From contig NC_134839.1 in the NCBI RefSeq assembly GCF_965363235.1, positions 77,091,410-77,155,409 of the forward strand: a stretch of 64,000 nucleotides of DNA. Reading direction: 5' to 3'. Under the pieces are notes generated by a model that was not told the DNA's origin, searched no databases, and saw nothing but the letters and a program-made list of their open reading frames with translations. The position numbers were made by a program, and so were the translations under genes. Numbering within the stretch: position 1 is the stretch's first letter; every line of letters starts with the position of its first letter. The DNA is from Mytilus galloprovincialis (lineage: Eukaryota > Mollusca > Bivalvia > Mytilida > Mytilidae). Below are positions 1,592 through 62,821 of this stretch, piece by piece.

Positions 1592-1718
1592 ATGATATCC
1601 GCCGGACTTTTTCTGGTTATAAATGTGCTGGTCAGTCTACAACTTGCAGATGGCCACAGCGAAAGTATTTATATACGTATTGTAAAGTTTATGCATAAAA
1701 GATGTATATATATATATA

Positions 1719-2060
1719 TAATTATTTTCTGTGACTGTATATTACATTAAATTGTAGGATCCTTTACTATAGATAATTTAGCTGATCTGTAATAATAACA
1801 TCTTCATGCCTTATATATCATGTACTGTAGTACGCCACTAGATTAAAACTGACGAGGAAAGGTAACACACGGCCAGCGAAAGCTCTTTTTTTGAAAGCCC
1901 AGGTGGTCGTGTGGTCTAGCGGGACGGCTGCAGTGCAGGCGATTTGGTGTCACGATATCACAGTAGCATGGGTTCGAATCCCGGCGAGGGAAGAACCAAA
2001 AATTTGCGAAAGCAAATTTACAGATCTAACATTGTTGGGTTGATGTTTAGACGAGTTGTG
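1719..2060 (+). mobile_element. tRNA-derived SINE copy in the intron of pseudogene A
   Basis: From about 1900 the sequence has a tRNA-like head: a box-A-like stretch (ggtggtcgtgtggtctagcg) followed about 60 bases later by the box-B-like ggttcgaatccc at about 1971-1983. The body matches the tandem units at 48479-49530, including the upstream stretch ending ggccagcgaaagct. The equivalent place in A' is a plain (TA)n run at about 24601-24622, so the element inserted into the microsatellite of this copy or was lost from the other. Confidence 0.75.
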
Positions 2061-2439: not shown

Positions 2440-2730
2440 GTAAGTTATTATTCGTGTGTTTCTTTGTCCAATATGTTTTGCTATTCATTTGTATTGTTGT
2501 CCTGTAATGTTATATTGTCATTTTAATGTTATATTTGACATTGTCATTAAAGCGGGAGGTTTGGCATGCCCACCATTTTTTTTACTTTAAAAAATGTCCT
2601 GTGCCAAGTCAGGAATATAGCCATTTTTTTTTTATCATAGTTTGTTTCTGTGTGTGTTACATGTTTAAAACGTTGTGTTTCTGTTGTGTCGTTTGTTTCC
2701 TCTTATATTTGAGTGGGAATTTGATTTGAT
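2440..2730 (+). repeat. Interspersed repeat, family beta (partial)
   Basis: A mussel-type repeat with the strings cctgtgccaagtcaggaata and gttgtgtcgtttgtttcctc. Related copies lie at 3075-3480 (reverse), 25030-25580, 51940-52260 (reverse) and 55085-55660 (reverse). In A' the full element runs up to the splice acceptor of exon 2. Here it is cut at about 2724, exactly where the gene remnant begins, so a deletion joined the inside of the repeat to the inside of the exon. Confidence 0.6.
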
Positions 2731-2819
2731 CAAAGTTCTGCTATCCCGTTTCACCTGGCCAGAAAACGTATATTGGGACTCTGACACAGAACAATGTGAA
2801 AGTAATGAAAGGGTTCAGA

Positions 2820-5800
2820 TTGATTGAATAACAAAAGGTACATGAATCAAAGCGTAATTATCTTCAGAACAGCCACTTACCTCAATTATATATATATATA
2901 CCCTTACATGCGAAACAATTATACAAGAAATAAAAACAATGCTAGTAGTTTCTGAAAACTAGATCAAAGTATTTGTTTTTGGGAAAAAAACGAATATTTG
3001 ACATCTAGTATTCAATTTTCCTCCGATTTACTTCTAAATCATTTTAAGGAATGTAGTAATGTAATCAAATAAAGGCAACAATAGTATACCGCTGTACGAA
3101 CTTCATAAATCTCTTGAGAAAAAAAAACAATCCGGGTTACGAATTAAAACTGAGGGAAACATCAAATATAAGATGAGAACAACGACACAACAGAAACACT
3201 AAAATGCAACATGCACAGACATGAACTCTAATATGACAATGGCCATTTTCCTGACTTTGTACAGGACATTTTAAGAAAAAAATGGTGGATTGAAACTGGT
3301 TTTGTCTCTAGCCAAACCTCCCTTCTTTTGTTAATTATAACATTAAAATGATAACGATACATGACAGGACTACAATACAAATGAAAAGGAGAACATACAG
3401 GACAGAGAAACACAAATAAACAATACTATATAACATTACGACAACTTTATATTTATCAAAGATACCAGGCTTGTAATTTAATACGTCAGACGCGTGTTTT
3501 GTCTACATAAGACTTATCAGTGACGCTCAGGTCAAAATAGCAAAGAAAGCAAAACAAAGATGAACGCATTGATGACCAAAACATTTCTAAAAGTAGTGCC
3601 AAATACGGCTGAGGTTATCAGCCTCGGATAAGACAGTATTTAGAATAATGCATACTTTTGCAAACAGTTAATTTATACGAAATTACTATATAATAGATAT
3701 ACAGTGATATTGTTTGCCTCAAATTACAGCCGAAATTCGGCCTTTTCCCCTAGAGAAAATTCCCAATAACTAAAAAAAATGGCTTTAAATTCCTCCCAAA
3801 AAGTTATACATTTTCCCAAAACAGTGATGGCATTGGTAGTAATGCTTGTAAATTTCGTATTCATGTTATTATTTTGATATTAGAAAGCACTTTTGAGATC
3901 TGGTTTTCTGATCAGAATCATCATGGTGTTTGTAACACATGTGGTTTTCAATGCATTAAGTACCATCATTGTTTCTGTGTCTTTCCCCTCTCCAAAAAAG
4001 TACCTTTCAGGTTGAAAATGTCTGACAACCAAAATATACATGAAAAAAACAGTGCAGAAAAGACAGCAAAGGTCAGCAAAAAATCGGAGATGTGTTTAAA
4101 ATGAAATATACAAATTTCCCAATTTCAATAAAAATATGCATTTTTCCCAATAAAAAACGGTAGAGGTAGTTTTGAAAAAAGACAACAATATCACTGATAT
4201 ACATGTTAACACCGTAGTGATGGTGGCTTACTACTGAATAAAAACGAATACGTAACACGGTTATGCTGTGGACAAAGTCGGATTATTAAATATATAATTT
4301 CAATGCTTACAAAGAAACATTTAATCATGAACAATGTGTTTCAAACTGAAAATAAGCAAATAAATATTCATCCGTATAATACATCACATCTCACTACAAT
4401 TAAGTATCTGTATTGTGTGAGTTGGTTTCCAATTATTTAACAGTTTTTAATGTTCTACTTATGTGTTTATTGTATGCGGGACTTATACATGTTATATACG
4501 AAAACTTAAAGTACCACGTTGCTTTGTTTACCAAGTTGTGTAAATGATAATCCATGTGGTACTAATTACTTTCTGTTGTGACAATCAAAAACCTTACGAA
4601 TATAAGACACATGCTGCAAATAAATTAATATGTGATTGACATTGTACAATGACCCTTGAAACATCATCATAATAAAACATCTACTCGAATCAATAATGCA
4701 TGTATTTTAATTATGCAAGACAGAAGTCGGAATGTGGCAACTAAAATCCATTGATATATATAATACAGACAATTTCATAAGCAATAGACATAATTTGCAA
4801 GCCAGGTATGCCATTACGGTCAACAAAAACATGATGCCGTCCACCAAAAAGTCTTAGAAAAGACATTAAACATGTTCAATAACGTCCTTGCACGTATAAG
4901 CCGAAACAAATGACATACACCGAATGCACGGCATTCCACGATGAGTAAACCCTATACCAAATAGTCAGCTACTAAAAATCCCAAACTAATAAAGTAAACC
5001 CTACAAACGAAAAAACTGCAGGTAAATTAATACATATTCTAGTATACATATTCTAGTATGTGGTTTGTTGATGTGGTTCATAAGTGACCCTCGTTTCTCG
5101 TTTTCACATGTATATAGATTAGACCGTTGGTTTTCCCATTTGAATAACTTTACACTGGTAATTCTGGGGCCCTTTATAGCTTGCTGTTCGATGTTAGCCC
5201 AAGCTCCGTGTTGTAGATCGTACTTTGATCTATAATGTTTACTTTTACAAATTGTGATTTAGATGGAGAGTTGGCTCATTGGCACTCATTCGACATCTTC
5301 TTATATCTGTATATGAAGTGAAATAGAAACGAGCGGCTTTTGTCATATAAAGATATCCTATTCTCCTTGTGTGTTCATTCCTTTTGTACTGTTTTCTGAC
5401 CAGCGTATTCTTACTGATAATATTTGTTTATTTCTAATTCTTCAACTGAATTCTTATATGAAATGTCATCAATATCCCAATACTTTCATTCCATACATTG
5501 GGGTGGGCTGTGCTGGAAATCTACACTTTAAATGAAAAGCATTTACTATTATCAAGGCCTTTCACTAACAATACTAGTTGTATATAGAACATGCACCTCT
5601 ATATAACTAAGAAGATCTTCATATATTTAAAAGTGCTAATAAAAAATTCGCAGAATTTAATCACCACATTACTACTATGCATAATGACAGTCATTATGTG
5701 TTTTTGTGTTATATATGGTAACTGGACTTATGATAATCCAACATTTCTCAGGAAATCTCACACTTAAGAAGACAGTCACGCTTGCTTTATGTTGCCTACA

Positions 5801-6180: not shown

Positions 6181-9100
6181 ATGAACAGCAGTTTAGTTCA
6201 AGTATTGTTCATGTTTGTGTTTTTACATATCAGTCAAAATGTAGATGGTATGTATTTTTATATTAAAGCATATAATAACAAGGCTTTGGAATATAGAAAA
6301 TATTTAAAAGATACTTTGTATTTTAATCATCTAAAGAGATAACTTGTTAATATTTCAACCCTAATCGATTTGATTTATCTTGATCGTGTTTTGATCATGA
6401 GACAAAAAATGTTGTGAACACTAAAGACATTAAGGTTTGCCTTATTTTGTGCGTTTTGAAAAACAGAATCGAAACACCAATATGAAATATTTTAACTATA
6501 AATCTTAATTTGTGTTCAGAAAAAAAAAAAGAAATGTTTTAGTGCACATTCTAAACATGATAACATCTAATTCAGACTTGACGTTTTACGTGATCTCTTG
6601 TTTGTTCAGTTATACGTTTATCTAGTTGCTTTTGATTTGTCACGCTTGTGTTTTATCCTATGCACATCTTTTAACAATGGTGCATGTTTTGCCCATTTAG
6701 CATTTCACATGCAATAAATCAGATTTTAGATAAAAAAAAAAAAAAAAAAAAGCATTTGACATTCTAGCCTATTTAACGTTTTGAAGTTAATGTTGGTCAT
6801 TCATTATCATAAATAAAGAAAAACATAGATCATGTCACGTGTCAAACAATTCTCATTTTAATAAATGATTTTCGGTATATCAAAGGTATAAAATAACAGA
6901 ACAACTTTCAATATCATTTCGAACAACTGTTGTAATAGTTGTAAAGAATAAGAACAGCAACATATATGTTTTATAGCTAGATTTAACTTAAAATAAATTA
7001 ATACACGTACAAAATAAGAAGTCTGATACTAAATGAGATTTCTATGGTTATACTGAAATTGAAAAGATTTCGTTTACCTTGAGTATGGGAGACAACTCTT
7101 TTGAAGGAATCGAAAGTCATTTGTGAGTTTTAACCTAGTAGTAATTGCAACAGCGTTCAAACATTTCTGTTGTTAACGTTCGGTTACGAAAATTACACAG
7201 AAGTATCTAAGACATTTATCGCCGCGATATAGCCTTTTTGTGATAATGCGGCGTAAAGCAACCAACAATCAATCAATCTAAGACATTTAGGAAGATTTTT
7301 GAAAAATTAAATTGAAAATATTAGATTGAATAATAAGGATTTAGTCCTAAGCTATTGGTTGATAGGCCTTACACTTACTTGTGTGTCTTTGGTTTTCAAT
7401 ATTATAGAAGGTATGGTCTGATCATCCACCCTAGTACAATCTAATGTTAACATATAGGCTTTATTAGCACACAGAGTGTACTAAGATCGTGACAGAAAGT
7501 ACAAAATTATAAGCCTGGTACTAAATGAGATTTCTATAATTTCACAGAAATTTTTGTTGTTTACATTGGTTATTGGAATGATACAGAAGGTTCTAAGATA
7601 TCTAGAAAGATTTTGGAAAAAATAAATCGGACATATTGGATTGAATCATAACGTTTTAAGGATGTAGCACTAATCTATTGGTTGATAGGCCTTACTTAAC
7701 TGTGTGTCAAATGCAAACGGCAATATTATAGTAGGTGTGGTCTGATTATCCACCTTAGTACAATTTAATGTTAACAGATTGCCTATATTAGCACACATAG
7801 TGTACTTAGATAGTGACAGACTGTCAAAACATTCATTTAAGCGTCAACTCGTTTGATAAAAAGGGAACTAGTAGCCTAGAATATTACGTATTTTAATGTA
7901 GATATGTCAATTCCACCGTGTAGAACGCCACATGCGGGGTGTCGGCTATGTTTGACATGGGGTGGCAATTTTGAAGCGACGAAAAAGTAAGAAGGTAAGT
8001 TCAAGCATCAAAATTTCTTATTTCTAGAACTCTCAGTACCATATAATGTATTGCACGGAAGGAACCGCAACATAATCTATTTCCCGAAAGCAGAAGCAGT
8101 CGTTTTCAGTGCTCAGTTTTCTCAAACACCTCGCCCTAGTTTTCCGTGTTGCAGATTTTGAGGCTTTATATGCAAATTTCGGTATAAAAAACTACTTTAA
8201 ACAGCCAACCCCGTATCATTTATATAGAATTGTATTCCTCTCATTGACTTATACCAAATACCAGTTTCTTAGTTAAAACTAATTGGTTTTAAAACTGTTA
8301 TTCATCAAAATACAAAGTGTGGCTCGGTGTGTCGGATTTTGCGTCGCAAGGGGTAGAGGCTTGTCATAAAGGAATACATATTTGCTTGTAAATTAGTCTT
8401 CATATGATACATTTTATTTCAAGCACATCTACTTTACCATGACAAAACAAGGATTTTTCATTTTGCCTGTTTTTGGTCTTATAAAATATATTCTTTTGAT
8501 TTCATTCACATCTACTTTACCATGACAAACAAAATAAGGGTTTTTCATTTTGCCTGTTTTTGGTCTTATAAAACATGTGCTTTTGATTTCATTCATAGTA
8601 AAAAAAAACTGGCTTAAAATATTTAGTTTTCAAGCTGGTAAACGATTTCTTTTCCTTTTCAGTCACTATCATGGTAAAAAAAAGTCAAGGCTATGGCTCA
8701 ATAAACCAAAACATCACAAAATAGTCCTCAATATAAGATGTGCTTGAAGCCTCCACCAGCCAAAATGCATCATTAACTGCTAGTAGTCTGTTGTTATTTA
8801 TGTATTATTGTCATTTTGTTTATTTTCTTTGGTTACATCTTCTGACATCAGACTCGGACTTCTCTTGAACGGAATTTTAATGTGCGTTTTGTTATGCGTT
8901 TACTTTTCTACATTGGCTAGAGGTATAGGGGGAGGGTTGAGATCTCACAAACATGTTTAACCCCGCCGCATTTTTGCGCCTGTCCCAAGTCAGGAGCCTC
9001 TGGCCTTTGTTAGTCTTGTATTATTTTAATTTTAGTTTCTTGTGTACAATTTGGAAATTAGTATGGCGTTCATTATCACTGAACTAGTATATATTTGTTT

Positions 9101-10909
9101 AGGGGCCAGTTGAAGGACGCCTCCGGGTGCGGGAATTTCTCGCTACATTGAAGACCTGTTGGTGACCTTCTGCTGTTGTTTTTTTCTATGGTCGGGTTGT
9201 TGTCTCTCTGGCACATTCCCCATTTCCATTCTCAATTCTATCATAGTTCATCACCAGGTTCATCTAAAAAGCACTCGTGCACGCCGCAAAAATCCATTAC
9301 TCCTAAGGAATTAGAACACTCCATCCAATGAAACACTCACCGGCATCTTTTTCAGCGAATGACAACACAACTTCAAGTAATCCTGAAGACGATGATACTA
9401 CAATTGTCAATGAGAAAACAACGACTTGTACACAATATACAACGGAACAGGTTTACAAGAAAAAATTATTCAAGACAGTTATTTCGTTCGTAATCGCCCA
9501 GCTAGAACTATCCGTTTTCTGTTACACATCTATCATATCATATCTACTTTGAAGGTCTACTCTGACTATATACATATCTCTAAACGAACCGGAATTGAAT
9601 AAAATTTGAAGAATTTGATGTAACCTGTGTTTTTCTAGGTTGAATTTCTGTTACATTTATGTTCCTATTTGTGTAGGTGTGTTTGAATTAAAAAGTATCA
9701 GATAGAGATCGATTTATAAGAAAATGTATTCTTTTTTTTATGACAAGCCTCTACCCCTTGCGACGCAAAATCTGACACCCCGGGCGACACTTTATATTTT
9801 GATGAATAACAGTTTTAAAACCAATTAATTTTAACTAAGAAACTGGTATTTGGTATAAGTCAATGAGAGGAATAGAATTCTATATAAATGATACGGAGGG
9901 TAGCTGTGTAAAGTAGTTTTTTATACCGAAATTTGCATATAAAGCCTCAAAATCTGCAACACGGAAAACCAGGGCTAGGTGTTTGAGAAAACTGAGCACT
10001 GAAAACGACTGCTTCTGCTTTCAGGAAATAGATTATGTTGCGGTTCCTTCCGTGCAATGCATTATATGGTACTGAGAGTTCTAGAAATAAGAAATGTTGA
10101 TGCTTGAACTTACCTTCTTACTTTTTCGTCGCTTCAAAATTGCCACCCCATGTCAAACATAGCCGACACCCCGCAAGTGGCGTTCTACACGGTGAATTCG
10201 TTCTAAGGGTAATCTACCCATACTGAATATTTCTGATTTTCCTTATAAAATGAAATGCCATTATGTTTGGATCCTTACCATTTCACTTATAAAAATAATA
10301 TAAAAAGAGACTATATAAGTGTTGTTTAACTTACAAGAAATACATTTTTTTATGTATAGGTTTATGCCCACCAAATTCTCAATTTGATTCAACGGAAGAG
10401 AAGTGTGTGTGTAAAGAAGGATACTCATGGGTCGAGGTTACAGAAACATGTGATCAAAGTAAGTTTATTAATTGATACACATTTCGTCTATCAACAATAT
10501 TCATAAATGATATTTACTTTTAATTTAGATAAGTTGTAACTAGCTCTGCATGTAAATACTTTAATGAAATTTTAAAAGAGGCATATGCATTGGACTGCAT
10601 TAGGTTAATGACATAAACAATAACAAACAATGACTAAGAAAAACAACAGCTACTAGTATTTTGTTGTATTTCTGCAAACGAAGTGAGTCGCATTTAGTTT
10701 CTAAAAATTAAACAATAATAATTCATATTAGAAAATTCCAAGAATTCAAACCATTTTGTTTGTTGGCAATTAGGCAATGGTGTAGCTTTGTGGTAATATT
10801 ATTGAAAATATCTTCAGAAAAATGCAATTGATGATATCTATTTATTATTGCAGTGAAGGGTGTCACTGTGTATGGTAATCCAGGTAGTCCAGGTGATGGT
10901 AGAAGGTAG
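6181..10909 (+). CDS. Gene B: small secreted peptide with two C-x12-C hairpins and a Gly-Pro-rich tail (3 exons)
   Basis: Exons 6181-6247, 10360-10458 and 10854-10909 join at phase 1 with GT-AG introns (donors gtatgt and gtaagt) into a 73-residue product. Exon 1 is a signal peptide of 22 residues with a strongly hydrophobic core and an N-V-D-G end. Exon 2 (33 codons) holds all four mature cysteines in the order C-x12-C-V-C-x12-C, beginning LCPPNSQFDSTEEKC, with the E-G-Y-S-W motif after the third. Exon 3 gives a tail with G-N-P-G-S-P-G-D and ends G-R-R before TAG, a pattern that can direct cleavage and amidation. AATAAA follows at 10939-10944. Intron 1 is 4.1 kb because it carries a 2.3 kb transposon. 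The module resembles short EGF-like or EB-like hairpins, but I cannot assign a named family. Secretion is a firm inference; function is unknown. Confidence 0.72.
7320..7810 (+). repeat. Tandem duplication inside intron 1 of gene B
   Basis: A block around 7330-7490 with the strings ttggttgataggccttac and ccaccctagtacaatc recurs in diverged form at about 7645-7810. Pseudogene C has one copy at about 15000-15190. The extra copy therefore arose in B after the B/C duplication, or was lost from C. Confidence 0.6.
7914..10194. mobile_element. 2.28 kb non-autonomous DNA transposon with about 470-base terminal inverted repeats
   Basis: The left arm (7914 to about 8383) is the reverse complement of the right arm (about 9722-10194), starting caccgtgtagaacgccac and ending gtggcgttctacacggtg. 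The direct repeat aattc flanks the element (7909-7913 and 10195-10199). Pseudogene C keeps the uninterrupted site gtcaattcgttcc at 15258-15270, which fixes both ends and a 5-base target duplication. The interior has a tandem duplication of about 90 bases (about 8425-8600), a common mussel repeat (about 8920-9230) and no convincing transposase. A frame at 9328-9552 has no recognisable domain. Confidence 0.85.
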
Positions 10910-13689: not shown

Positions 13690-14214
13690 ATGAACAGCAG
13701 TTTGTTTCAAGTATTGTTCATGTTTGTTTCTACATATTAGTCAGAATGTAGATGGTAGGGTTTTTTTTATATTAAAGCATATAACAACAAGGCTTTGGAA
13801 TAGAGAAAATATTTAAAAGATAATTAGTGTTTTAATTATTTAAAGAGAGAACTTGTAATTTTCCAACCCTTCTTAATTTGATTTATCTGTATCGTGTTTT
13901 GATCATGAGACAAAAAAAAATGTGAACACTAAACACATTAAAATTTGCCCTTTTTGCGTTTTGAAAAACACAATTGGAACACCAATATGAAATATCTAAA
14001 CTGTAAATCTAAATCTGTGTTTAGAAAAAAACAATAAGAAATGTTTTAATGCACTTTCTAAATATGATAACCACTGATTCGGCTTTTATGTGATCTCTTG
14101 TTTGTTCAGTTATACTTTTATCAAGTTGCTTGTGTGTATTGACATATGAACATCTTTCAACCATGTTGCATGTTTTTCTATAAATGAACTTTATTAATAC
14201 TTAAAAGAAAAAGA

Positions 14215-15840: not shown

Positions 15841-16429
15841 AAGGGTAATCCAAGAACATCTTCTTCGACTCACGAAATTAATAAAGAAAAAAATGGCATT
15901 AGTTCAAAATGTAAAAAATTGGAAATTGAATTGAGAAAGAATATATTTTTTTCATTTATAGGTTCATGCCCACCAAATTCTGAATTTGATTCAACGGAAG
16001 AAAAGTGTGTGTGTGAAGAAGGATTCTCATGGGTCGAGGCTTTCCAAATATGTTTTCCGGGTAAGTTTATTACTTGATAGAAACTTTCAGTTTTGATCAA
16101 TATTCTAAATGACATTTACTTTAAGTTTAGATATGTTGCCAGTATCTCTGCATGAATACTTTTTATAAATTTTTTAAAGAGACATGTGAATTGGACTTTC
16201 TTTATTAGGTAAATTCCACAAAACAAGAACAAACCATCACTTTAAAAAAAACACAACAGCCAATTAACTATAGTAATAAATCGGGGAATGTCGTAGATTT
16301 ATAGTCATTGGTAGCATTAGTTCTTGCAAATGAAGTTAGCCCCATTAACTTTCTAAACAAAATATAATAAATCATTGTTGGAAACTGCACATATTCGAAT
16401 TATTTTGGTTGTAGGAAATAAACTCACCA

Positions 16430-16790: not shown

Positions 16791-16995
16791 CCATAGAAAT
16801 TATGCAATGATGTAACTTTGTGGTAATGAAATGACAAATATTCTACAAAAAAGGCAATTGATGGAAACTAATTTAGTGACCCGATATCTTAATAACGTAT
16901 ATTTATAATTTCAGACATGGTGTATTTGATAACCCATTTTAAGATGATGGTAAAAGATAATACTTTGAACAGAGCGAAAGACAGACACAAATAAA

Positions 16996-24486: not shown

Positions 24487-26497
24487 ATGATATCCGCCGG
24501 ACTTTTTCTGGTTATAAATGTGCTGGTCAGTCTACAACTTGCAGATGGCCACAGTGAAAGTATGTATATACGTATTGTAAAGTTTATGCATTAAAGATGT
24601 GTATATATATATATATATATATGGACACTTGTGAATATAAACAAAGATGTGGTATGATTTCAAATGAGACAACTCTTCAAAAGTGTTTAAATGACACAGA
24701 AATAAACAACTGTATGTCACCGTAAGGTCTTCTTTAATGTGAAAAGTCAATACCGCATAGTCAGCTTTAAAATGCTCCAAAATGGCAATTGTAAAACAGT
24801 TCAAACGAAGGCTATGCGTTCAGCCGAAATATTTGTTAACATGATTTTATATACTGTCTTCTTATATACATTTGTAAGTACCGTTGCGCAAATCTGAATT
24901 CAATATTTTTTTCTAGCCTTGATGATCTAATACATATAAAAATTTGCAATGTTTTCCTTAATATAGACTTCAATATAGTACATGTAAGTCTTGTGTGGAC
25001 GAAAAGCACTTCTGGCGTATTAAATTTTAAACCTGGTGCCTTTTTTTAGCTATTATTCGTGTGTTTCTTTGTCCAATATGTTCTCCTATTTATTTGTATT
25101 GTTGTCCTGTAATGTTATGTTTTCATTTTAATGTTATATTTAACATTGCCATTAACGCGGGGGGTTTGGCATGCCCACCATTTTTTTTACTTTAAAAAAA
25201 TGTCCTGTGCCAAGTCAGGAATATAGCCATTTTTTTAGTATAGTTTGTTTCTGTGTGTGTTATATGTTAACGTTGTGTTTCTGTTGTGTCGTTTGTTTCC
25301 ACTTATATTTGAGTGGGAATTCACATTACTATAAAACGTGTCATAGTACTTTTCTATCCAAATTTATGTATTTAGTTTTTTATGTTATATTTGTTATTCT
25401 CATCGGATTTTGTCTAATGCTTAGTTAGTTTTTGTGTGTGTTACATATCAATGTTGTGTTGTTGTTCTTCTCTTATATTTAATTCGTTTCTCCCAGTTTA
25501 AGTTTGTAACCCGGATTTGTTTTTTTTTCTATCGATTTATGAGTTTCGAACAGCGGTATACTACTGTTGCCTTAATTTTTTGTGATAGATAAGAAGATGG
25601 GAGAAAATATAAAAGACGGAAGATATTTACGTTTGATCAAAGTTCTGCTATCCCGTTTTACCTGTCCAGAAAACGCATATTGGGACTCTGACACAGAACA
25701 ATGTGAAAGTAATGAAAGGGTTCAGAAGCAGTTGCTGCAAACGTCTGCTTCCTGCCCGCCAAATGAACAGTGTCAGTGTGGTGAAGGTTATTCCTATGAC
25801 CCGATTAAAGGAATGTGTATACCTGGTAAGTCCTTTATTACATTTACTTTATACATGTATGTCGTTTATGTATAGCACGGTAGTATTTCCTTTCTTTATA
25901 ATATTCAGATGTATCATGACCGTTTGCTTATTTTTCTATTTTTATAAACCTAAGGCCACTAGTGCTTTAAGGTTTTTATTATGCAGTGTATACAAAATTT
26001 TAAAAATTCCTCAAAAATTGTATGCAGTCCTACATAAATACGGTATAAAAAAAGAGGAATGGACTGCACGCTTATACAACAGAAACCCAACGACATAAAT
26101 TACAAAACAAAACACAGTCTTCTCTAGAAAACAGATGCTATACACAATTATAATTTTCAGAGTGTAAAACGTTGTGTATAAATTTAAAATTAACTTTCAC
26201 ATACTATAATATACCAGCAACGAATTTTGCAAAACCAATATTGAGATATGAAATAAGACAACTAAAACAAGTATCCAGATTACGGAAAGACACATGCCCT
26301 AGTGGCGGAGTTGAACTATTTTTAACAAATATACGATTGATAGATTTCTTTTGCCCTTCGTACCTATTTTTAAATGTTATTGACAGTAAAATGAAAAAAA
26401 ATCTTTTTTTCGGTTTGTGTTCTTTTCCGAAAGAACTAACTATTAACTCACTTTTTTTTCTGTAGAATCAGGTTGCTGTAATGGACACGTACCTTGA
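24487..26497 (+). CDS. Gene A': secreted eight-cysteine peptide (3 exons)
   Basis: Exons 24487-24559, 25589-25825 and 26466-26497 join in phase 1 (donors gtatgt and gtaagt, acceptors ending gatag and tgtag) to encode 113 residues. Exon 1 is a signal peptide ending L-A-D-G. Exon 2 (79 residues) has a basic start, then CPENAYWDSDTEQC (C-x12-C), a linker, and CPPNEQCQC followed by G-E-G-Y-S-Y and another C-x12-C hairpin. Exon 3 is only ESGCCNGHVP and a stop, adding a CC pair, for eight mature cysteines (C-x12-C-x16-C-x5-C-x-C-x12-C-x5-CC). AATAAA follows at 26548-26553. The acceptor of exon 2 directly follows a beta repeat. A start at GTG 25582 would be wrong, because AG at 25587-25588 is the splice site. 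Pseudogene A is the broken twin. Function is unknown. Confidence 0.75.
25030..25580 (+). repeat. Full beta repeat abutting exon 2 of gene A'
   Basis: It runs from about cctggtgccttttttt to gcggtatactactgttgcct, the usual end of this family, and the exon acceptor lies 8 bases further on. The pyrimidine-rich tract before the splice site is therefore partly repeat-derived. Related copies are reversed at 3075-3480, 51940-52260 and 55085-55660. Confidence 0.65.
26164..26465 (+). other. Long open frame in the last intron of gene A', possible cassette or relic exon
   Basis: After a fair acceptor (attttcag, ending 26160) the frame stays open to the terminal exon. It includes E-C-K-T-L-C and later RQLKQVSRLRKDTCPSGG, which distantly recalls the basic stretch and first C-P of exon 2. 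I see no phase-1 donor of good quality, so a constitutive exon is unlikely. It may be a decayed module or an intron-retention product. The open frame alone proves little in DNA this AT-rich. Confidence 0.2.
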
Positions 26498-45222: not shown

Positions 45223-45257
45223 TTAACCACCTGCGCCGCTAGTACAACATCCATGTT
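45223..45257 (-). CDS. Terminal exon T2 of the gene E family
   Basis: On the minus strand, after acceptor ttttgtag, the exon encodes KHGCCTSGAGG and TAA, including the base carried over from the upstream exon. It has the same length (35 bases) and CC-x-S-G frame as T1. AATAAA in minus orientation is at 45188-45193, 30 bases below the stop. The flanks match those of T1 over about 350 bases. The upstream module is c. No signal exon is seen between T1 and c, so use depends on splicing from the gene E signal exon. Confidence 0.6.
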
Positions 45258-47540: not shown

Positions 47541-47690
47541 TTTCCAAACTATTGAATCTTTCATCAGCATCTTCACATTTTCCTGTCATTCTATTGTAAG
47601 AAAAACCTTCTTTGATGCACTGGATTTGCCCTCTATCTCCCAACAAAAGTTTACGGAGGACATTCACAGGGTCAATTGGTTTTGCTGGTT
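47541..47690 (-). CDS. Module exon c of the gene E family (orphan cassette)
   Basis: On the minus strand the exon lies between acceptor tatttag and donor gtaagt, is 150 bases, and is open in phase 1. It encodes PVNVLRKLLLGDRGQIQC, then IKEGFSYNRMTGKC, with a C-x13-C hairpin (one residue longer than in b), followed by an acidic linker E-D-A-D-E-R. It is the closest relative of exon b, and about 650 bases of flank (47520-48240 against 50450-51190) are shared, so a b-T1 unit was duplicated to give c-T2. That duplication did not include a signal exon. Whether it is spliced is unknown, but it shows no disabling change. Confidence 0.6.
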
Positions 47691-49536: not shown

Positions 49537-49565
49537 TATAACAATAATCAACTTTTCCTTCTGTT

Positions 49566-52500
49566 TTAACCACCTTGGCCACTATTACAACATCCATTTC
49601 CTACAAAAATATAAAGCAAAAGTCTTAATTAAGAAAATAAAACATATTCCATAAAACTCGGAATCCGTATGCATGATATTTATTGCAAGCGTTTGATAAT
49701 GGTTATAAGTTAATTTTGATTGATATACATGTCTTAAATATTTATTCACAAAACTAAGTTTATTTGAAAAATCGATCGAAATGGATTCACATCTTTTGAC
49801 AAGAAAAGTATGGCAACAATAAAAATATGTAAGCCCCGCAAACACTTCGTCAAATTTTCTCAATAACAAACCAATTTTTTTATTTAAAAACGCTTTATTA
49901 CTGAAAAATTATTACACCAGGGTTTTCGATATCGCAAATTAGGCAAATCATTTATCAAATTCTATCATCGGTAAAAGGACATCATTCGTAAAAAAAAATC
50001 AACATGAAGACACCTAAAACTCTCGTCTTTATTTATCAGAAAAAAAAACATACAAATAAAAAGGAACAAATCATCCCAAAAACAGAACTAATTTTGTTGA
50101 ATGTGAAAAAAATGTCTTTGAAACCGTTTGATGTTGATCGAGTTTCTTTTAGAGACTGTGTTAGTGTTTTGCAATTTGACTGAGATCTTGTCATATTAGA
50201 CATGTATCAAAACGTGTCTGTTTTTTTCTATATATTGACCTTTACCTATTTTAAATGATGTGTGTGCAATATATTTCTCCTTGTCCGTGTTATAAAAAAG
50301 CAAACGCCTTAAATTTTGGTCACTTTGTCGGTTAATAAATAAATTAGTTTGTAGTATATAGAAATAATGTAAATGGTAAAAAAGATATAAACACAAATTT
50401 CAGAAGACATCTATGCCAAAAAAGGGGTAGATACAGCGTTAATTGTAAGATTATCTATATATTTTCAACCTTTGATATACTTACTTTCAGAAAGATTGGA
50501 TCTTTCATCATCATCTTCACATTTTCCTGTCAATCTATTGTAAGAAAAACCTTCGTTGCACTTGTATTGCCCTTTATCTCCCAACAAAATTTTACGAAGG
50601 ACATTCACGGGGCTAGTTAGCTTTTCTGGTCCTAAATAAAACCATTTAGTGTACTTTTAATATCGAGATATAAATGAGCAAAAATATTGGTAGGAAATAA
50701 AACACACCGGTAATGAAAGACAGATCCCATATGGTTTTATGTAAATTCACTCTGCTAATTAGAAGCTGAATTAATGTTTTAAACGCTTGAGTTTTTTCGT
50801 CATTGTCGTATTATTTCATGTAATGAACAAAAATAACGTGTATTCAGCATTATGGATTGAAAAATATTCCGATCAAACATATATTTCCTGACGTTTACCA
50901 AGGTTTTATTCCGAGGTTACACCGAAATATCGTTGTCATTGATGCTTTCTTCTCAAATATCAAGACATACAATTGATCTCAAACAAACAGCTTTCAATTT
51001 TTCCTGCATGTGCTGTGGGATGTGTTGAGAATATAAAGACAGCTATGGTTCAATTATTCACCTATATTATGGGTTTATCATTGTCCACAAAAGTGAATTG
51101 ATATGACCTTTTGGGAATATCATCAAACAAGGAAAATAATAATTCATAAAACCAAGAAGATGTAATTATAAAAGCACTTTCGCCAATAGACAGAAGTGTA
51201 TCACTACACTATTAAAATCAGTAGATAAAAGCTTTACCCATCAGATCATCAGATCAATACAAAGCAAAAATAACTACCAAAAAACTGATAAGACACAAAG
51301 TACAGATATGATAGTATAATGCACTCGTAGTAGCAGACAAAAAAATGTGGTTTTTTTTTTTTTTTGGTTTTTTTTTTTTTTTGGGGGGGGGGGGTTGTAG
51401 GAGACAAAGTTCTTTATTATAATATAATATATTCATATAACAAGTGTTTTTTCAGTATAAATCTTCTGGCATTCAAGAAAAGTGGTAGATACAGTTTTAA
51501 ATATTATATTATGTCTACATGTTCATCCCTTTATATACTTACTTCCAGAAAGATTGGATTTATCATCATCATTTTCACATTCCTCTGTCAGTACATTGTA
51601 AGAGAACCCTTCGTTACATTCTTTAATTTCATCTTCCAATAACAGGTTACGAAGGGCATCAATTTGTTCATTTGTCTTGTCTCTTCCTAAATAAGACCAA
51701 ATAGTATAGTTTTGATGACGAAATAGAAATAACACAACATAGCAATAGCACAAAAAAAAAACACACCTGTAAAGAATATAATAAGTCTGTACATTGTTTT
51801 CTACAGATTCTGCAATAGAACAAATTGTTTGCTGTTTCTTCCGTAGATTTTTTTAATTGTGCAGCTTCGGTTGATGGGGCTATTTTTTTTTAAAGAGAAT
51901 TAAAAAGAAAAAAAGAAATTCATAATGTATTTTCTATAAAGGCAACAGCAGTTAATCGCTGTTCAAAAGTCATAAATCGATTGAGACAAATCCGGGTTGC
52001 ATACTAAAACAAAGGGAAACACATCATCTATAAGAGGAAAACAACGGAACAACTGACACACTGAAGTGCAACAAATTACAAACGACAATATAACATACAT
52101 AGAAACGAACTTTTAGATAAGGATTGCCATATTCCTGACATGTAAAATTTAAGAAAAATATGGTTGAACCTGGTTTTGTGGATAGCCAAACCTCACACTT
52201 TATGGCAATCTTTAATGTACCGCTCAAATGACAGGAATACAGTACGAATTAATGCAAGACCACTTGGGACAGAGAAATTCTTCAAGAAATAATATAATGG
52301 AACATTTCGACATGTTAACCACAGAATGACAACGAATATCTAAAAAAAATTAGGACAGTACACAAAAACAGCATAATAGAATTACGAACTGTCCATTACA
52401 TGAATGAAATAACGCCACAAAAGCGACGTCACATTTAAATTTCTAAAAAATGGATCTAATTTGTAATTAGGTTTGTTATTATGTTATTTGATATATTTTA

Positions 52501-53604
52501 TAACAATAAGAAGAATATCAAATATATAGATGTGTAAGTAATTGTAAATTATAGGCTGAAACACATCTTTTGATATCCCAGTGACAAAGGTGAAACTAAA
52601 ATGAATGAGATATAACTAAGGAAGAACTATTCCTTGATAACAAATGAATTATTACAAGAAACAATATGTCGATGTCAATTTTTATTTATCAGCCATTGTA
52701 GTTTCAACCAAGAAATGACCGAAATTAAACATATAAATTTGTTATTTTCACATTCCCTTGAATCAAGAACAGGAAAGATATAAAGCTGTTTTTGTACTGT
52801 TTGTATACTATTTATATATTGAGAAAAGGTTAGTTTTGCCTCCTTGCATGTTAAGATGACAATATAAATTGACTGAATATGCACAGATAAATATGTGCCT
52901 ATTAAGACATTCACTTTGATTTCACTGTGGGACTATTGACGTTATGTATATTTCATATGGGATAAGTAGATATGTTATTTTTAGCTAGGGAAATGGCGAC
53001 ATATTTCTTGCTTAATTAAGACGTACACTGATTCATTAGTTCATTACTGGAAGAATTCTAACCATACCCTAGGACAGATAAAGTCTAGGTAGATATGCAT
53101 GCTTCCATTATCTTAAATTATGCTAATTATTTCAATACAATATGATCATGAAAAAATACAGACTTTTCTTATTTATTATGTATAGGTCTCAACTTTTATT
53201 GTTTTTCAATATATAAATAGTATAAAAGCAGCTACCATTTTTTATGGCATGTAATAATATGTTTTATATTCAAACACTTTATGGTATTAAGAAAACATTT
53301 CACAATCTAGAGTAAATTATTGTAGAATTTGTAGAGGTTATAAATAATCTACGATATAATCGGCCGTTTGGTTACTTATTTATTTTTATCGAACATTCAC
53401 AAATAAAATGAAATCATAAACATAGTGTAGGAATAAAAAAAATATAGAATAAAAACAGAAACACAAAGCTACATTTTCGATAAATAAATAAAAGTAAAGT
53501 CATGGGTTCCCATTTACATACATACCTCTAACGTGTCGGGTGAGTGCGATATCAAAGCATATACACACCAAAAATAACGTCAATACTGAACGTGGAATAT
53601 TCAT
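49566..53604 (-). CDS. Gene E: secreted peptide with two leucine-rich plus cysteine-hairpin modules and a CC tail (4 exons)
   Basis: Minus-strand exons 53604-53526 (signal), 51686-51543 (a), 50631-50485 (b) and 49600-49566 (T1) join in phase 1 with GT-AG introns into 134 residues. The signal exon has the hydrophobic core VLTLFLVCICFDIAL. Modules a (48 residues) and b (49) share a pattern: a leucine-rich helix-like part (LRNLLLED or LRKILLGD), then C-N-E-G-F-S-Y-N-x-L-T-x-x-C (C-x12-C), then an acidic linker (ENDDDKSNLSG, EDDDERSNLSE). T1 encodes RNGCCNSGQGG and a stop. The mature protein has six cysteines and ends in G-G. A TATA box lies at 53698-53707. The same exon types recur downstream (c, T2, d, T3), so alternative 3' cassettes are possible. 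The family is not one I can name. Confidence 0.75.
51349..51395. repeat. T-run followed by a G-run
   Basis: Two T runs separated by gg, then ten or so G. It lies in intron a-b of gene E. Run length is uncertain, as such tracts often assemble poorly. Confidence 0.8.
51940..52260 (-). repeat. Beta repeat, reversed
   Basis: The family end ggcaacagcagttaatcgct and the segment atagccaaacctcacacttt are both present. It lies in intron 1 of gene E. Confidence 0.6.
52261..53525. other. Intron 1 of gene E, remainder
   Basis: AT-rich sequence in which I see no further module exon. The frames here are short and uninformative. Confidence 0.4.
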
Positions 53605-58103: not shown

Positions 58104-61100
58104 TTATTTTCCCCCAATTCCTCCTCCACCAAAAGCTCCAATACCTGCAAAAACAAATTTGCATATAAATTTATAGTATATATTTACTTCGGTGGCCATA
58201 AATATTATTCCAACAAGATTTATTGATACTAATATATATATCACATTAGTTGTTATCTATCAATAGTGGCTCTTTTTTACTATTCCTTGTCATTTTATTG
58301 CATTGCGTATTATGTTTTAGAAGGATTAAGACTTCAATAAGATATGCTTTGTTGTTGAAATTGGATGTACCAGAAATCAATCAAAAGAAATCACTTTCAG
58401 TTGCAACTCGTGGCCAGAGACAATGTGTTCAATCATAATACGCTAACTATCCTACAACTGAACTAATTGATAGTAAATATCATGTAATGAAGTTTAATAA
58501 CTATCCAGGCAAAAATTTATTAAAAATATGATTATAATTAGACAAATGAATATCAATTTCATTTGTCTAATTATAATCGGTGAAATTTTCATCGAGGAGT
58601 CGCCCGTTAGACACTGGCCAGCTACCGCGGGTCTCTCAACCATCGAGGCCGGCAAACTATACCCTCGGTAAAAAAATTTACGTGGGTGAAATTTTCATCG
58701 AGGAGTCGACATGCAGTTTAGTTTCCAGTTTTCGATATTCAATTATGCGTTTTGAAAGTGAATCCCAAGGCTTATGTTGTTTTTTTTAATGTAATGGAAT
58801 TTATGCGACTGTCAAAAACGTTAGAGGTTTAGCAAGCTATAAAATCAGGTTTAATTCCCCATTTCTACATAAAAAATGTCTTTACCAAGTCAGGAATATG
58901 ACGGTCGCTATCCATTTGTTTGGTGTTTGAGCTTTTTATTTTGCCATTTGATAACGGACTTTCAGTTCTAATTTTCCTCGGAGTACGTATTTTTTTTTTT
59001 TTTTTTTTTTTTATTTTTTTTTATTTTTTGTGTATTTCAAGTGATATCAAGACATGTACCTTGCCTACCCATATAATTTCGAATATGACAAAATTGTAAT
59101 TTGAATTCGTATCTCTTTTTCTATTCTTAAAACCCTCTTTTCCTGCAATGTTTAGTAGTTATTTAGTTCTAGTAAACACTCAAAATAGCAAAATTATTCT
59201 TTTATCAGTCTGTACACATCTGTTAAGTTGTATCATTGGCAAAAACACAATTACTCATTATGTTAATATATAAACAGAGGGGTGATAAGATTAAATTATT
59301 GAAACTAACAATATATGTCGAACAAAAGCTGCCGAAACCATGATTGAATGATAAAGCACGATTATAGCAACGGTAGCCATCTGATAATGATTGGAACTGA
59401 TAGCCCTGAGATAGTGTATTAACACTTTATGCAAGCGCTGTTGGCTGTTGCTAATGACACTATACATGTTTTCGAGTTTTCAGAAGGAAAGTTTATAATC
59501 ATACTTTTTTCAATGAGTTTAGGTCAAAGCAGATCTTTAATCTCAAATATTTTATGCAAATATAATTGGATCAGTATTCATAATTTCGAGCGGAAATATG
59601 CGATCAATAATTATCAAAAATATTCAGTGAAAAATATATCACCATATTCACAAAAAGTGAAGTTCAATAACTAGAAATTTAAGTCTAATTAATTAAAATT
59701 TTTACTTACCGTTTACTATACAACTTCGAGTTTCTTTGCGAAAGATTTCGCCATCCCTACATTCTATTAAAAAGAAAGAAGTTAATTGTACAATGTATGC
59801 GTCACAGCATTTAGGCCATGAAACCAACTATTTGTTAAATCAATTAGGTGTAATTATTCCACAATAAAATTAAAAATGAAAAAAATAAGAAAATAAACAT
59901 TAAATTTGCAATATCTTTAAATTTGCGAAAATATGTAACCTTGTTGTTTGATATTGTAGATTAAACAAGGTTCGTGAATTCATGCTTTTAAAGTAGTATT
60001 CTTTGTAATTAGAAAAATGTTCTGCAAACCGCTATATTCTTATTACAGAATATGTTCATGCATTTTAAATCTTTTATATAAAATGCTGCATATATAGTGA
60101 ACTATTTGTCATAGTGTATAAATAAAAATTAAATTAAATTGCATATCTCTAAACAGCTTTGTGCCTTTCACTAGGAACAATTCTGACAGAGAAGAAAATC
60201 GTACTTTTGCATTTTCCTGTAGTTGCATTGTACACTTTATCCTTCTTAGCACACTTAGCAGCATTCATTATTCTTCTCGTTTCGAGAAGATTCAAATCGG
60301 AACGCTCCATTGTATTCAGGTTGTTCAGGACTCGCAATATTCCATATTCCTTTCTTTCTGAAAAAAAATATTTATTTTAGAACCATGTGAACTTGAAATT
60401 TAGTTTAATATCCGTAAGGAAAAATCTGCTACAGTTCTTTTCTGTGATAATAGCACAGCAGGGCGGCTTAAAACTACAGTATATGTTAAACGTGATGATG
60501 AAAACTGTCGAATTGTCAATTTTCCTTTTCTCAGTAGTAAATATATATACAGTAATCGTGGCAATCCCAGGTAGCCCGGATACTGGTGACATCCATGAAA
60601 ATCTGTCAACTGAACTTTTATACATCTAGCTAATTAACGTTTAAAAAACGTTGGAACATATATTTTCATATAAAACAACCAAATTTATAATGGATTTTAT
60701 ATATATTTGAGCGTATACTAATCCATTCTTGTTTATCGAATATCTTACTAGCGAAAATCACGATATGACTATAAAAGCTGACACGAGGATCCCAAAACAT
60801 CATACGCCCGGTTTTGATGCGAATTTCATTAACAGGGGTGTGCTTCTTGCTCCAAACAATTGCTCCACTAGAGTTATGAGGAAGAAAACAAAAATTACAA
60901 AGAGCTTGCAATTGTATCCAACAACCATAAATTAACGAGTTACATCAACCATTTTATATATTTTTTTCTATTCATTTGTTTAACATTGTTATGAAGAGCA
61001 CGTGCAGTCATATATGTTGCATTTGTTAGTGGGAATATTTAAAAGTAAAGAATGCATTCTGCTTCATGTATCATGCACGTTTCTCGCCAAAATCATATAA

Positions 61101-62821
61101 AATCGTATGAAACCTCTTTGTATTGTTTTTTAATTGTGTAAAAGCATATTAATCAACTACATCCCGGTAAATATATAAACAAACTATCGTTTGATAGAAC
61201 CACTAATTCGGGCTTGGTAGGTAAGAACAAAAAATAACTGCTTTACATGTTTAAACAAAATAGTTTGTACGCATAGTTATACATAAGTAAATGTGTAAAA
61301 ATATTTAGTTAGTTTTGGTATCAAATTAAACCATAAAGAGACATAACTCTTTTGTTTGTATTGAATGTTTCCGTAAGTTAATGAATGTTTTTGATAATCG
61401 TAAATATGTTATAACTGTCAACTATTCTTATAGATAAAATAATTTCTATTACATAATTTTGCTCTCTTATACTTTTCAAACATTGACGTATATATACGCC
61501 GGTATAATGGACATATTATGGTACACCGTTGTCCGTCCATCTATCTGTTCATTCGTCTGTCGTCAACATTGAAACTTTGGTAAATTGTTTATATCTCTTG
61601 ACGTTTGTTTGTTCTGTTTTGTTTTGTTTTTTTTTTGTTTTTTTTTTTTTTCTTTTGTTCGGTTTTTTTCGATTTTGCGTTTCCGAGTTATGGATTTTTT
61701 TTCGATAAAAAGGGTGATTTTCAAGTTTTCTGACCATTACTCACACACTATTTCAAATTTCCAAGAAGCTTTGGTGACTGGTTTATATCTATTAAGATAG
61801 CCTCCTTTAGTTTTTCATAAATTTCTGATATGACATTGAGAAGTTATGGATCTTTATTCTATGAAAAAAAAGTGACGGGCGCATCATGCTCTCATGGTGC
61901 AGCTATGTACACATCAAAGGGACTTTACATATTTTAAAGACATCATCAACATAAAGTTTATTTAAACTTAAGATAGAATAGCTGGCCTCTTAAAATCGCC
62001 GAATTCACCATCGAAAACGAAGGGGCCAAGATTAGGTATTTTATTACATCAAAAACTCTAATACCTCTTAATTCGAAGAATGCAAAAATTAAAACATTAA
62101 ATGATAGGTATATTTAATTATACCAAGTGATCATACAAAATGTAATTTTTGGCAGGAAAAAAAAACATTTTTTCTTTTTCCTACAGTTCTTTTTCCTACA
62201 GTTGCAAAATAGACAATAACGTGGCTAACGATAAATGGCACAATTCGCGACGTCAAATGTGAAATATAAGGGAAGGATGTCTGTTTCATTTGAATTTAAA
62301 TATTTCCTAGAAAACCAGTACATGAACTCTTGTTTTTTGTCTTTATGTTTTGTTTACTTTTTATTTGGAAAAAATCCACGATTTATTTTTTGAAGGAGTA
62401 TACTGGATTCAATACTAATAATATCACAAAAATGATGTTCATTACCGATTAATACAAAAAAAAAGAGGTTTGTTATAAAAGCGTTATATCGAATTGATAT
62501 ATCGCTATTAGCAGTCACTCTGGTTCAATTTATTCAGAAAGGATTTTAAGAAAAAACCATCATCCCTGAGCTCAACTAAGTATAAATAACGAGATTCAGT
62601 AGAAGCTTCGGAATCTAGGAGACACTATCAACACAATAATTCTGAAAATGGCAAACAATTAAAACCCATTGGCAATCAGACCACAAGTCCTGTTCTTATT
62701 ACTAAATAAAACAAACTGAAAGTTTAAAAAAAAAATCAACTTAACTTTCTCACCTACTTTCAAAACCCATCGTTGTAGAGATGACTAAAATGAAAAGCAG
62801 ACCTTTTACGAAATAAAACAT
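58104..62821 (-). CDS. Gene F: secreted four-cysteine peptide with a Gly-rich tail (4 exons)
   Basis: Minus-strand exons 62821-62758 (signal), 60357-60205, 59763-59710 and 58144-58104 join in phase 1 into 103 residues. The signal exon encodes MFYFVKGLLFILVISTTMG and then F-E. The junction gives K-R-K-E-Y-G, a dibasic site right after the signal peptide. Exon 2 has a leucine-rich start (GILRVLNNLN) like the gene E modules and ends CAKKDKVYNATTGKCK. Exon 3 adds K-CRDGEIFRKETRSC. Together these give C-x13-C-x2-C-x12-C, the gene B pattern split by an intron. Exon 4 encodes GIGAFGGGGIGGK and TAA. Exon 2 uses a weak donor (gtacga); read-through would reach a stop at 60149. A TATA-like TATAAAAATT (62877-62886) lies about 60 bases above the ATG. 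Function is unknown; the product is inferred to be secreted. Confidence 0.72.
58530..58578. repeat. Perfect 21-base hairpin
   Basis: gattataattagacaaatga plus one base pairs perfectly with 58558-58578 around a 7-base loop, in intron 3 of gene F. It is followed by two direct copies of gtgaaattttcatcgaggag (from about 58581 and 58685) with GC-richer sequence between, a small unexplained unit. Confidence 0.75.
58790..59030 (-). repeat. Delta repeat, reversed, ending in a T-run
   Basis: ttaccaagtcaggaatatga, ccatttgtttggtgtttgag and ttttcctcggagt mark the family. A T-run at 58990-59012 follows the family's end. It lies in intron 3 of gene F. Confidence 0.65.
60495..60629 (+). other. Plus-strand frame with a signal-peptide-like start inside intron 1 of gene F
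   Basis: A 44-codon frame starts MMKTVELSIFLFSVVNIY, a good signal-peptide shape, and continues IPGSPDTGD, which recalls the G-N-P-G-S-P-G-D tail of gene B. The gtagcc after ATCCCAG at 60570 could be a phase-1 donor, as in all signal exons here, or the frame could be read to TAG at 60627. No downstream plus-strand module is seen before the window ends. It may be a chance frame or the fused remains of a gene B-like copy. Confidence 0.25.
61495..61930 (+). repeat. Interspersed repeat with simple T-runs
   Basis: It begins cgccggtataatggacatat and ends acgggcgcatcatgctctca, both familiar to me from mussel DNA. T-rich runs between (61618-61652) give the low-complexity frames seen on both strands. 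It lies in intron 1 of gene F. Confidence 0.55.
61931..62757. other. Intron 1 of gene F, remainder
   Basis: AT-rich sequence, no exon seen. Confidence 0.35.

Follow-up and report, generated by a model that had tools for sequence, protein, structure and literature searches.

This locus raises the question of whether the short exons scattered along it belong to working genes of a single peptide family and, if they do, from which fold the cysteine-bearing modules descend and what the encoded peptides are likely to do. The window, which is the whole 64,000-nucleotide stretch that was analysed, is chromosome sequence of Mytilus galloprovincialis, and the cluster continues past both of its edges. 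An earlier note on this DNA had described a gene cluster, built from phase-1 exons, for an "apparently undescribed" family of small secreted peptides with cysteine hairpins, and the existence of this mussel family is supported by the exons and by annotated proteins. The view of the locus as a real, uncharacterised cluster of small secreted peptides made of repeated disulfide hairpins, with some copies broken, is largely right. The word "undescribed" holds only narrowly: our literature search on mussel peptides found no description of this family or peptide type, but databases already list the gene products, under the labels uncharacterised or hypothetical. There are nine database matches to the family, and the seven that carry a name are all from Mytilus.

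Gene structure of the cluster

An intact gene consists of a signal exon, one or two hairpin exons (mostly with the spacing C-x12-C) and a tiny tail exon. This exon plan is established from the sequence and, for units E, B and A', from independent annotation as well. All introns are in phase 1, so duplication or exchange of a module leaves the reading frame intact. The exons of these three units are as follows.

53526..53604, minus strand: unit E (LOC143062419), signal exon ending in phase 1
51543..51686, minus strand: unit E, constant hairpin exon E1, phase 1-1
50485..50631, minus strand: unit E, alternative hairpin exon E2 of isoform X2, phase 1-1
49566..49600, minus strand: unit E, terminal exon T1 of isoform X2, Gly-Cys-Cys tail ending in Gly-Gly
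47541..47690, minus strand: unit E, alternative hairpin exon E3 of isoform X1, phase 1-1, the sole C-x13-C
45223..45257, minus strand: unit E, terminal exon T2 of isoform X1, Gly-Cys-Cys tail ending in Gly-Gly
6181..6247, plus strand: unit B, signal exon ending in phase 1
10360..10458, plus strand: unit B, double-hairpin exon, phase 1-1, C-x12-C-V-C-x12-C
10854..10909, plus strand: unit B, terminal exon ending in Gly-Arg-Arg-stop
24487..24559, plus strand: unit A', signal exon ending in phase 1
25589..25825, plus strand: unit A', hairpin exon, phase 1-1, with an L-R-x-L stretch, C-x12-C, then C-x5-C-x-C-x12-C; half-match to CBM_14
26466..26497, plus strand: unit A', terminal exon, Gly-Cys-Cys tail agreeing with the end of database protein P0001

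The predicted joins of unit E are identical, letter for letter and over all 134 and 135 residues, to NCBI isoforms X2 and X1 of LOC143062419, and they exactly match database proteins P0003 and P0004. Unit E is one intact gene with two alternative splice forms, in which a constant hairpin exon is spliced to alternative hairpin-plus-tail cassettes. In the annotated isoforms, the choice of downstream cassette yields two peptides with a common first hairpin and a different second hairpin and tail. The product of unit B is identical at 72 of 73 residues to the mussel "Hypothetical predicted protein" P0008. A database protein search identifies P0001 as the orthologue of A', and the annotated M. trossulus protein LOC134705109 is 87% identical to A' over the query, with 14 of the 113 A' residues differing and one additional residue in the M. 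trossulus protein.

The remaining exons belong to units that are broken, predicted or without a signal exon of their own.

1592..1664, plus strand: unit A, signal exon ending in phase 1, a copy of the A' signal exon; the surrounding 1.2 kb has 86.9% DNA identity to A'
2725..2827, plus strand: unit A, hairpin-exon remnant of a broken copy, 5' part and acceptor gone, Trp for the first Cys
13690..13755, plus strand: unit C, broken signal-exon copy, out of frame with an early stop
15962..16060, plus strand: unit C, double-hairpin exon, itself open, phase 1-1; together with its flanks it shares 92.5% identity with a sister copy beyond the left edge of the window
16915..16960, plus strand: unit C, terminal-exon remnant whose phase-1 reading frame differs from that of the sister copy's tail
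62758..62821, minus strand: unit F, signal exon ending in phase 1
59710..59763, minus strand: unit F, single-hairpin exon C-x12-C, phase 1-1
58104..58144, minus strand: putative terminal exon of unit F, rich in Gly and with a Gly-Lys end
36978..37123, minus strand: fourth E-type hairpin exon, an orphan with an in-frame stop just 5' of its donor, absent from the isoforms found
34349..34386, minus strand: E-type terminal exon T3, an orphan whose Gly-Cys-Cys tail ends in Gly-Arg

Of the six gene units originally proposed (A, B, C, A', E and F), three have independent annotation (E, B and A'). A has lost part of its hairpin exon and its first cysteine, C has an out-of-frame signal exon with an early stop and a terminal exon in another frame than its sister copy, and F is plausible but predicted only. 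The hairpin exon of C is about as diverged from the sister copy as the C flanks are. Two exons that have no signal exon of their own (47541..47690 and 45223..45257) are the X1 cassette of unit E, whereas the fourth E-type exon and T3 still stand alone. The terminal exon of F is a weak candidate because it was chosen with a filter for Gly(-basic) or Cys-Cys ends. An L-R-x-L stretch ahead of the first cysteine, which E and F had been said to share, is instead common to E and A': the sole exon candidate found in the F region begins at the cysteine.

The broken state of A and C, the early stop in the fourth E-type exon and the unexceptional divergence of the C exon might together suggest a mostly dead cluster whose relics are open by chance. 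This is very unlikely, given that the reading frames of E, B and A' are uninterrupted and that these units are annotated in other assemblies or species.

The hairpin module and its descent

The module had been described as having either C-x12-C or C-x13-C. The first spacing predominates (17 of 22 loops counted across the cluster, including both hairpins flanking C-V-C in B and in C), but the second occurs only once, in E3. The fourth loop position is Gly or Asn and the seventh is aromatic in all 14 aligned C-x12-C hairpins, and likewise in the other three of the 17 loops. Such exons exceed chance expectation: under strict splice criteria the window contains six C-x12-C hairpin exons, all of them family exons, while 25 order-2 Markov control sequences judged by the same criteria have a mean of 0.08. 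The six sequences counted contain 4 to 8 cysteines each, and the F model contains 2; the mature parts of the same six are acidic, with a net charge of -3 to -8, in which they differ from classic antimicrobials. The AlphaFold models are of low quality (mean pLDDT 46.5 and 49.8), and in that of P0001 the second cysteine of the first loop is spanned by a helix instead of a hairpin.

The earlier failure to match the peptides to any named family is partly wrong, because A' passes the curated Pfam cut-off for CBM_14 (PF01607; 22.1 bits), although the rest of the family gives weak matches or none. The A' hairpin exon scores 27.8 bits (E 2.9e-6; also 27.3) and P0001 scores 25.1 bits (E 2e-5); among the database records of A' type, two are already labelled PF01607 by precomputed annotation. 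The matches span only profile positions of about 25-51 of 53, which is the C-terminal half, and none contains a complete domain with all cysteines. The cut-off is not reached by B, C, the E forms, P0003-P0005, P0007-P0009, G1, F or H. Three of these nevertheless match CBM_14 better than any shuffled sequence matches a profile (P0003, E 0.00087; B, 0.0016; P0007, 0.0031), whereas the matches of C (0.061), exon E2 (0.047) and G1 (0.02) lie near the level that shuffles attain with unrelated families (E 0.025-0.22). No match to CBM_14 is seen in P0004, P0005, P0009, the fourth E-type exon, H or F (E up to 1), nor in the signal-plus-E1 piece (E up to 10). None of ten shuffles with fixed cysteines matches CBM_14, in which hairpin position 4 is also Gly or Asn and position 7 aromatic. 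The hairpins resemble half a chitin-binding domain, and most likely they descend, as a free-standing derivative, from the C-terminal hairpin of the CBM_14 (peritrophin-A/tachycitin) fold, although curated cut-off support for this putative descent comes from A' only.

Two other origins compete with this one. The end of A' (C-x-C-x-x-G-Y ... C-I-P ... C) could be a shortened TIL domain (PF01826), in which case the peptides would be degenerate protease inhibitors. Residues 50-107 of P0001 align with the entire TIL profile (1-55 of 55; E 0.0031), and its best PDB match is IMPI, a TIL-type metalloproteinase inhibitor (E 0.45). This best TIL score, 18.1 bits, is below the cut-off of 24.5, P0003, P0004, P0005, F and H have no TIL match at E up to 1, and the family has fewer cysteines than the ten of a TIL domain, so that we consider such inhibitors decidedly unlikely. 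Alternatively, the hairpin could derive from a TNF-receptor- or EGF-like repeat or be convergent, and chitin binding would then not be expected. For G1 (21.0 bits) and P0009 (19.2), Pfam gives the TNF-receptor repeat RANK_CRD_2 (PF18278) as the top match, and in the PDB a profile of the 14 hairpins ranks LDL receptor chains first and EDAR fourth. However, the Pfam scores are below the cut-off of 26.8, and nothing in the PDB search is significant (best E 0.08 for LDL receptor, with EDAR at 0.49 and a dust mite allergen at 0.78), whereas CBM_14 reaches its cut-off for A'; there is little probability in this origin.

Tails, divergence and possible function

Most of the family tails end in Gly followed by up to two basic residues. 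This pattern, G[KR]{0,2}, is found in eight of nine tails and its stricter form, G[KR]{1,2}, in six of nine, with the broken C left out; if the filter-picked F is also removed, the counts are seven of eight and five of eight. Among all candidate terminal exons of phase 1 in the window, a set that contains the family's own, the corresponding figures are 37/805 and 5/805. The family tails are not independent counts because they are partly related. A' is the exception among the counted tails, and the uncounted tail of C likewise has no Gly end. Such ends resemble those of amidated precursors, which suggests that most of the peptides may be amidated.

Amidation could also point to regulatory, hormone- or toxin-like peptides that act on receptors rather than glycans, and the exchange of tail and second hairpin by alternative splicing, together with an internal Lys-Arg in unit H, would be consistent with this. 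Conserved hormones, however, do not usually lie in tandem arrays with broken members and strongly diverged paralogues, and named homologues occur in Mytilus only; a regulatory role is accordingly unlikely, if still worth weighing.

Fast evolution of the modules, as proposed earlier, is suggested rather than demonstrated. Over nine hairpin-exon pairs dN/dS ranges from 0.23 to 1.31, with only 18-29 synonymous sites per pair; it exceeds 1 in three pairs (1.13 for B-C, 1.30 for B against the sister copy m9 and 1.31 for E2-E3) but is 0.69 in the closest pair, C with m9. By analogy, tandem duplication, secretion and named matches in one genus would also suit rapidly evolving reproductive or gamete-surface peptides, but the sequence has no gamete-specific features, and we regard this role as improbable.

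We tentatively prefer, at less than even confidence, a Mytilus birth-and-death cluster of secreted, mostly amidated peptides with CBM_14-derived hairpins and a glycan-binding effector or matrix role. The peptides would enter the secretory pathway and fold through their disulfides; for most of them the motif predicts trimming and alpha-amidation at the C-terminal Gly(-basic) end. The weakest step is their function, most likely that of extracellular effectors or matrix peptides whose aromatic hairpins would bind chitin-like or other glycans, either to defend barriers or haemolymph or as part of a secreted matrix. A bolder form of the same proposal is rather doubtful: the half-CBM_14 hairpin would be an independent minimal glycan-binding unit, E a constant-plus-variable system in which an invariant signal and first hairpin receive exchangeable cassettes of second hairpin and amidated Cys-Cys tail, and the whole a set of amidated hairpin peptides confined to one genus and subject to rapid turnover. 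If the cluster is as proposed, a distinct cysteine-hairpin family joins the mussel peptide repertoire and illustrates a route by which half a chitin-binding domain can come to stand on its own as a module that is shuffled and alternatively spliced. LOC143062419 and its neighbours are defined genes, in which this can be tested directly.

Comparison with known systems

The family shares with CBM_14 the C-x12-C hairpin, and A'-type proteins exceed the Pfam cut-off, but only the C-terminal half is present here, hairpins are single or paired through C-x-C, and most tails contain Cys-Cys. Mytichitin, a mussel antimicrobial peptide, has a full chitin-binding domain from a chitinase. TIL and IMPI resemble the end of A' over the TIL length, but family scores are below the cut-off and P0003-P0005, F and H are unmatched. 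The resemblance of G1 and P0009 to RANK_CRD_2 is confined to the second hairpin, where it spans about 18 residues, and these small peptides, with signal exon and tail, have no receptor body.

Like the CRP-I knottins of Mytilus, as presented in PMC10138031, the family is multigenic, secreted and cysteine-rich, with broken copies. None of the 14 sequences (five models and nine database proteins) contains the CRP-I array given there, C(X3-6)C(X1-7)CC(X3-4)C(X3-5)C, and whereas the last exon of CRP-I genes encodes the cysteine-rich mature peptide, no family model has all its cysteines there. The molluscan I84 protease inhibitors, according to PMC9198434, are also secreted and acidic, lie in tandem clusters and have three exons, as B and A' do; type 1 introns are mentioned for them as well. 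They have 12 conserved cysteines in motifs of the type C-X5-C-X4-C-H-C, in contrast to the C-x12-C hairpins here. Membership of I84 was considered and rejected at 4 to 8 cysteines in six sequences and 2 in the F model, against 12 per mature peptide. The myticalins are free of cysteine and are described as linear and cationic, but they too are mussel multigene peptides, and PMC12294457 already proposes amidation at their Gly-basic C-termini.

Exon models and their agreement with annotated proteins

Six-frame and splice-site scans of the window recover the signal and hairpin exons that had been proposed from the sequence, every one of them in phase 1. Hairpin exons that satisfy strict criteria number six in the window, all belonging to the family; the average over 25 Markov control sequences is 0.08. 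Protein models were built by joining exons under the phase rule, and were then compared with the matches from a protein-database search that is sensitive only to relatives with short exact words in common. The search returned nine proteins, seven of which carry names, each from Mytilus; the two nameless ones (P0002 and P0006) run into intron sequence and are excluded from statements about full-length proteins.

The exon joins made here hold exactly for unit E, whose models are identical to isoforms X2 (P0003) and X1 (P0004) of LOC143062419, and they recur in near-identical database proteins for units B and A'. The unit B model differs from P0008 (“Hypothetical predicted protein”) solely in its last residue, and the unit A' model shows 14 differences over its 113 residues from the M. 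trossulus protein P0001 (LOC134705109), which is one residue longer. M. edulis also has a close protein, P0005. The predicted joins of E, B and A' are backed by annotations made independently of the sequence reading used here. The claim of six units survives in part: E, B and A' match annotations, but A and C are broken, and in F a signal exon and a single hairpin are followed by a terminal exon that is a candidate only.

Broken units, duplicated exons and the extent of the cluster

The hairpin exon of unit A has lost its start and its first cysteine. In unit C the signal exon is out of frame and meets an early stop, the tail is in a different frame from that of the sister copy m9 to the left of the window, and the module with its flanks is 92.5% identical to m9, the exon itself being no better conserved. 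A dispersed repeat occurs in both orientations (25024-25578, 55098-55666, 2419-2721 and 3058-3414; about 80-87% identity in the listed pairs), with copies adjoining the hairpin exons of A and A', and it may be the reason why the unit A exon lacks its start.

The two isoforms of unit E join a constant signal exon and hairpin exon E1 to one of two alternative pairs, a hairpin exon and a tail exon, which are either E2 with T1 or E3 with T2. The two pairs are products of a duplication, with an identity of 80.5% around the hairpin exons (50350-51175 versus 47410-48224) and of 86.8% around the tail exons (49521-49671 versus 45178-45328). Tandem copies of a 442-base repeat unit, which resembles a tRNA-derived SINE with A- and B-box motifs, lie between E3 and T1 at 48463-49530; dispersed copies are also present, including one at 1700-2079, and ARAGORN finds no tRNA in the repeat. 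Further family exons are found both inside and outside the window.

Additional family exons and units, by window position (negative values and values above 64000 lie outside the window)
36978-37123: a fourth hairpin exon of E type, which contains an early stop
34349-34386: orphan E-type tail exon (T3)
about 66294-67836, minus strand, right of the window: unit H, a predicted family gene made up of a signal exon, a hairpin exon of spacing C-x12-C, and a tail that contains Gly-Cys-Cys and ends in Gly-Lys-Lys
about -16083 to -16003, plus strand: L006, a B-type module with an open frame and a shortened first hairpin (C-x7-C)
about -89163 to -89053 and -63950 to -63840, left of the window, minus strand: a pair of almost identical exons whose C-x11-C hairpin belongs to a different type, neither with an assigned signal exon

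Unit H contains Lys-Arg inside its C-x12-C exon and has no confirming annotation; the plan of L006 is similar to that of the second module of A', and one of the two C-x11-C exons was searched against Pfam with no match. Across 264 kb, eight B-type signal exons are readable in frame, in addition to the broken one of unit C. Searches of the whole 1.38 Gb genome score the best candidates only, so that their match counts are lower bounds: at least six for the C module, all on the contig of the window at 77.05-77.11 Mb, at least two for the A' exon, both inside the window, and at least four for E1, all inside the window. P0009 corresponds to the gene of unit G1 (about -46415 to -39080) in an older assembly, and its C-terminus, which continues past the usual tail end, is an allelic or annotation difference. 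The dN/dS values that the earlier note proposed for the modules were computed, but the 9 hairpin-exon pairs, with 28 signal-exon pairs, are too small a basis for a test of selection.

Among the other elements of the window, a 184-codon open frame at 43809-44363 on the plus strand, which resembles a Tc1/mariner transposase, matches nothing in Pfam up to an E of 1, and scans for Rfam families (at the gathering threshold) and tRNAs were empty.

The hairpin pattern and its descent

Fifteen open exons of the cluster contain 22 hairpin loops, not counting the longer linker of A'. A spacing of C-x12-C or C-x13-C had been claimed; the former accounts for 17 loops and the latter is confined to E3, the others being C-x11-C (two) or shortened (two). 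Fourteen C-x12-C hairpins were aligned, a set that leaves out the second loop of C, L006, the C-x12-C loop L005, E3, the two C-x11-C exons and the two shortened loops. Position 4 is Gly or Asn and position 7 is aromatic in 14/14, and position 8 is Asp or Asn in 11/14; the three unaligned C-x12-C loops (second of C, L006 and L005) also have Gly at 4 and Trp at 7.

The earlier note could match the peptides to no named mussel peptide family. The A' exon (27.8 bits) and P0001 (25.1 bits) pass the 22.1-bit cut-off of the chitin-binding domain CBM_14 (PF01607); the remaining members have weak matches to it or none. Only the last half of the profile is spanned, and a full CBM_14 domain is therefore rejected. 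Shuffles with fixed cysteines (six of A', four of B) match neither CBM_14 nor TIL in any of ten cases, and three of the ten match other families at E 0.025-0.22, so that member matches at E 0.02-0.06 mean little.

Descent from a TIL domain is a weaker rival: P0001 scores 18.1 bits across the whole TIL profile and its best PDB match is the TIL-type inhibitor IMPI (E 0.45), but the TIL matches fall below the cut-off and membership is rejected. The TNF-receptor repeat RANK_CRD_2 is the best Pfam match of G1 and P0009, also below cut-off, so that membership is again rejected; a TNF-receptor or EGF type of descent, which this fit suggests, is improbable. Membership of CRP-I and of I84 is rejected too, since their defining features are absent. 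The hairpin profile finds nothing significant in the PDB, and the C module has six matches there at E 0.4-9.2 (thrombomodulin, LDL receptor, ephrin receptor). Structure predictions, with three sequences in the alignment for P0003 and two for P0001, are of too low a confidence for a fold search; the AlphaFold models would place strands in both loops of P0003 and in the second only of P0001.

The hairpin is most likely a derivative of the C-terminal half of CBM_14. The reading as a whole, a cluster of secreted, amidated, glycan-binding hairpin peptides, is tentative, possible rather than probable, because the weak CBM_14 matches of some members are of about the same quality as the best matches of shuffles to other families and because G1 fits RANK_CRD_2 better.

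Tail ends and predicted function

The tail count starts from nine sequences (those of B, m9, G1, A', T1, T2, T3, H and F) and excludes the tail of the broken unit C, which does not end in Gly plus 0-2 basic residues. The candidate F tail, chosen with a filter for Gly(-basic) ends or Cys-Cys, was set aside; the H tail came from the same filter, but carries Cys-Cys too. Gly plus 0-2 basic residues ends 7/8 of the remaining tails, A' being the exception, and Gly plus 1-2 basic residues ends 5/8, against 37/805 and 5/805 among the candidate phase-1 terminal exons of the window (family included), counts that do not amount to a probability because the tails are partly related. Such ends occur within the family tail in six of the seven full-length database proteins (P0001, P0003, P0004, P0005, P0007 and P0008); the tail of P0009 is extended, and the extension also ends in Gly.

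Literature searches on locus names and two peptide strings found no paper, and searches by topic over titles and abstract openings found no description of the hairpin family, subscription journals and supplements being outside the scope of both. A classic membrane-killing antimicrobial role is disfavoured because six family sequences are acidic (net charge -3 to -8). Glycan binding would be a guess, prompted by the likeness to CBM_14 and the conserved aromatic residue. We infer that the peptides would be secreted, would form disulfide hairpins and would be processed at the tail; the Gly-basic ends of mussel myticalins are read as amidation sites in PMC12294457.
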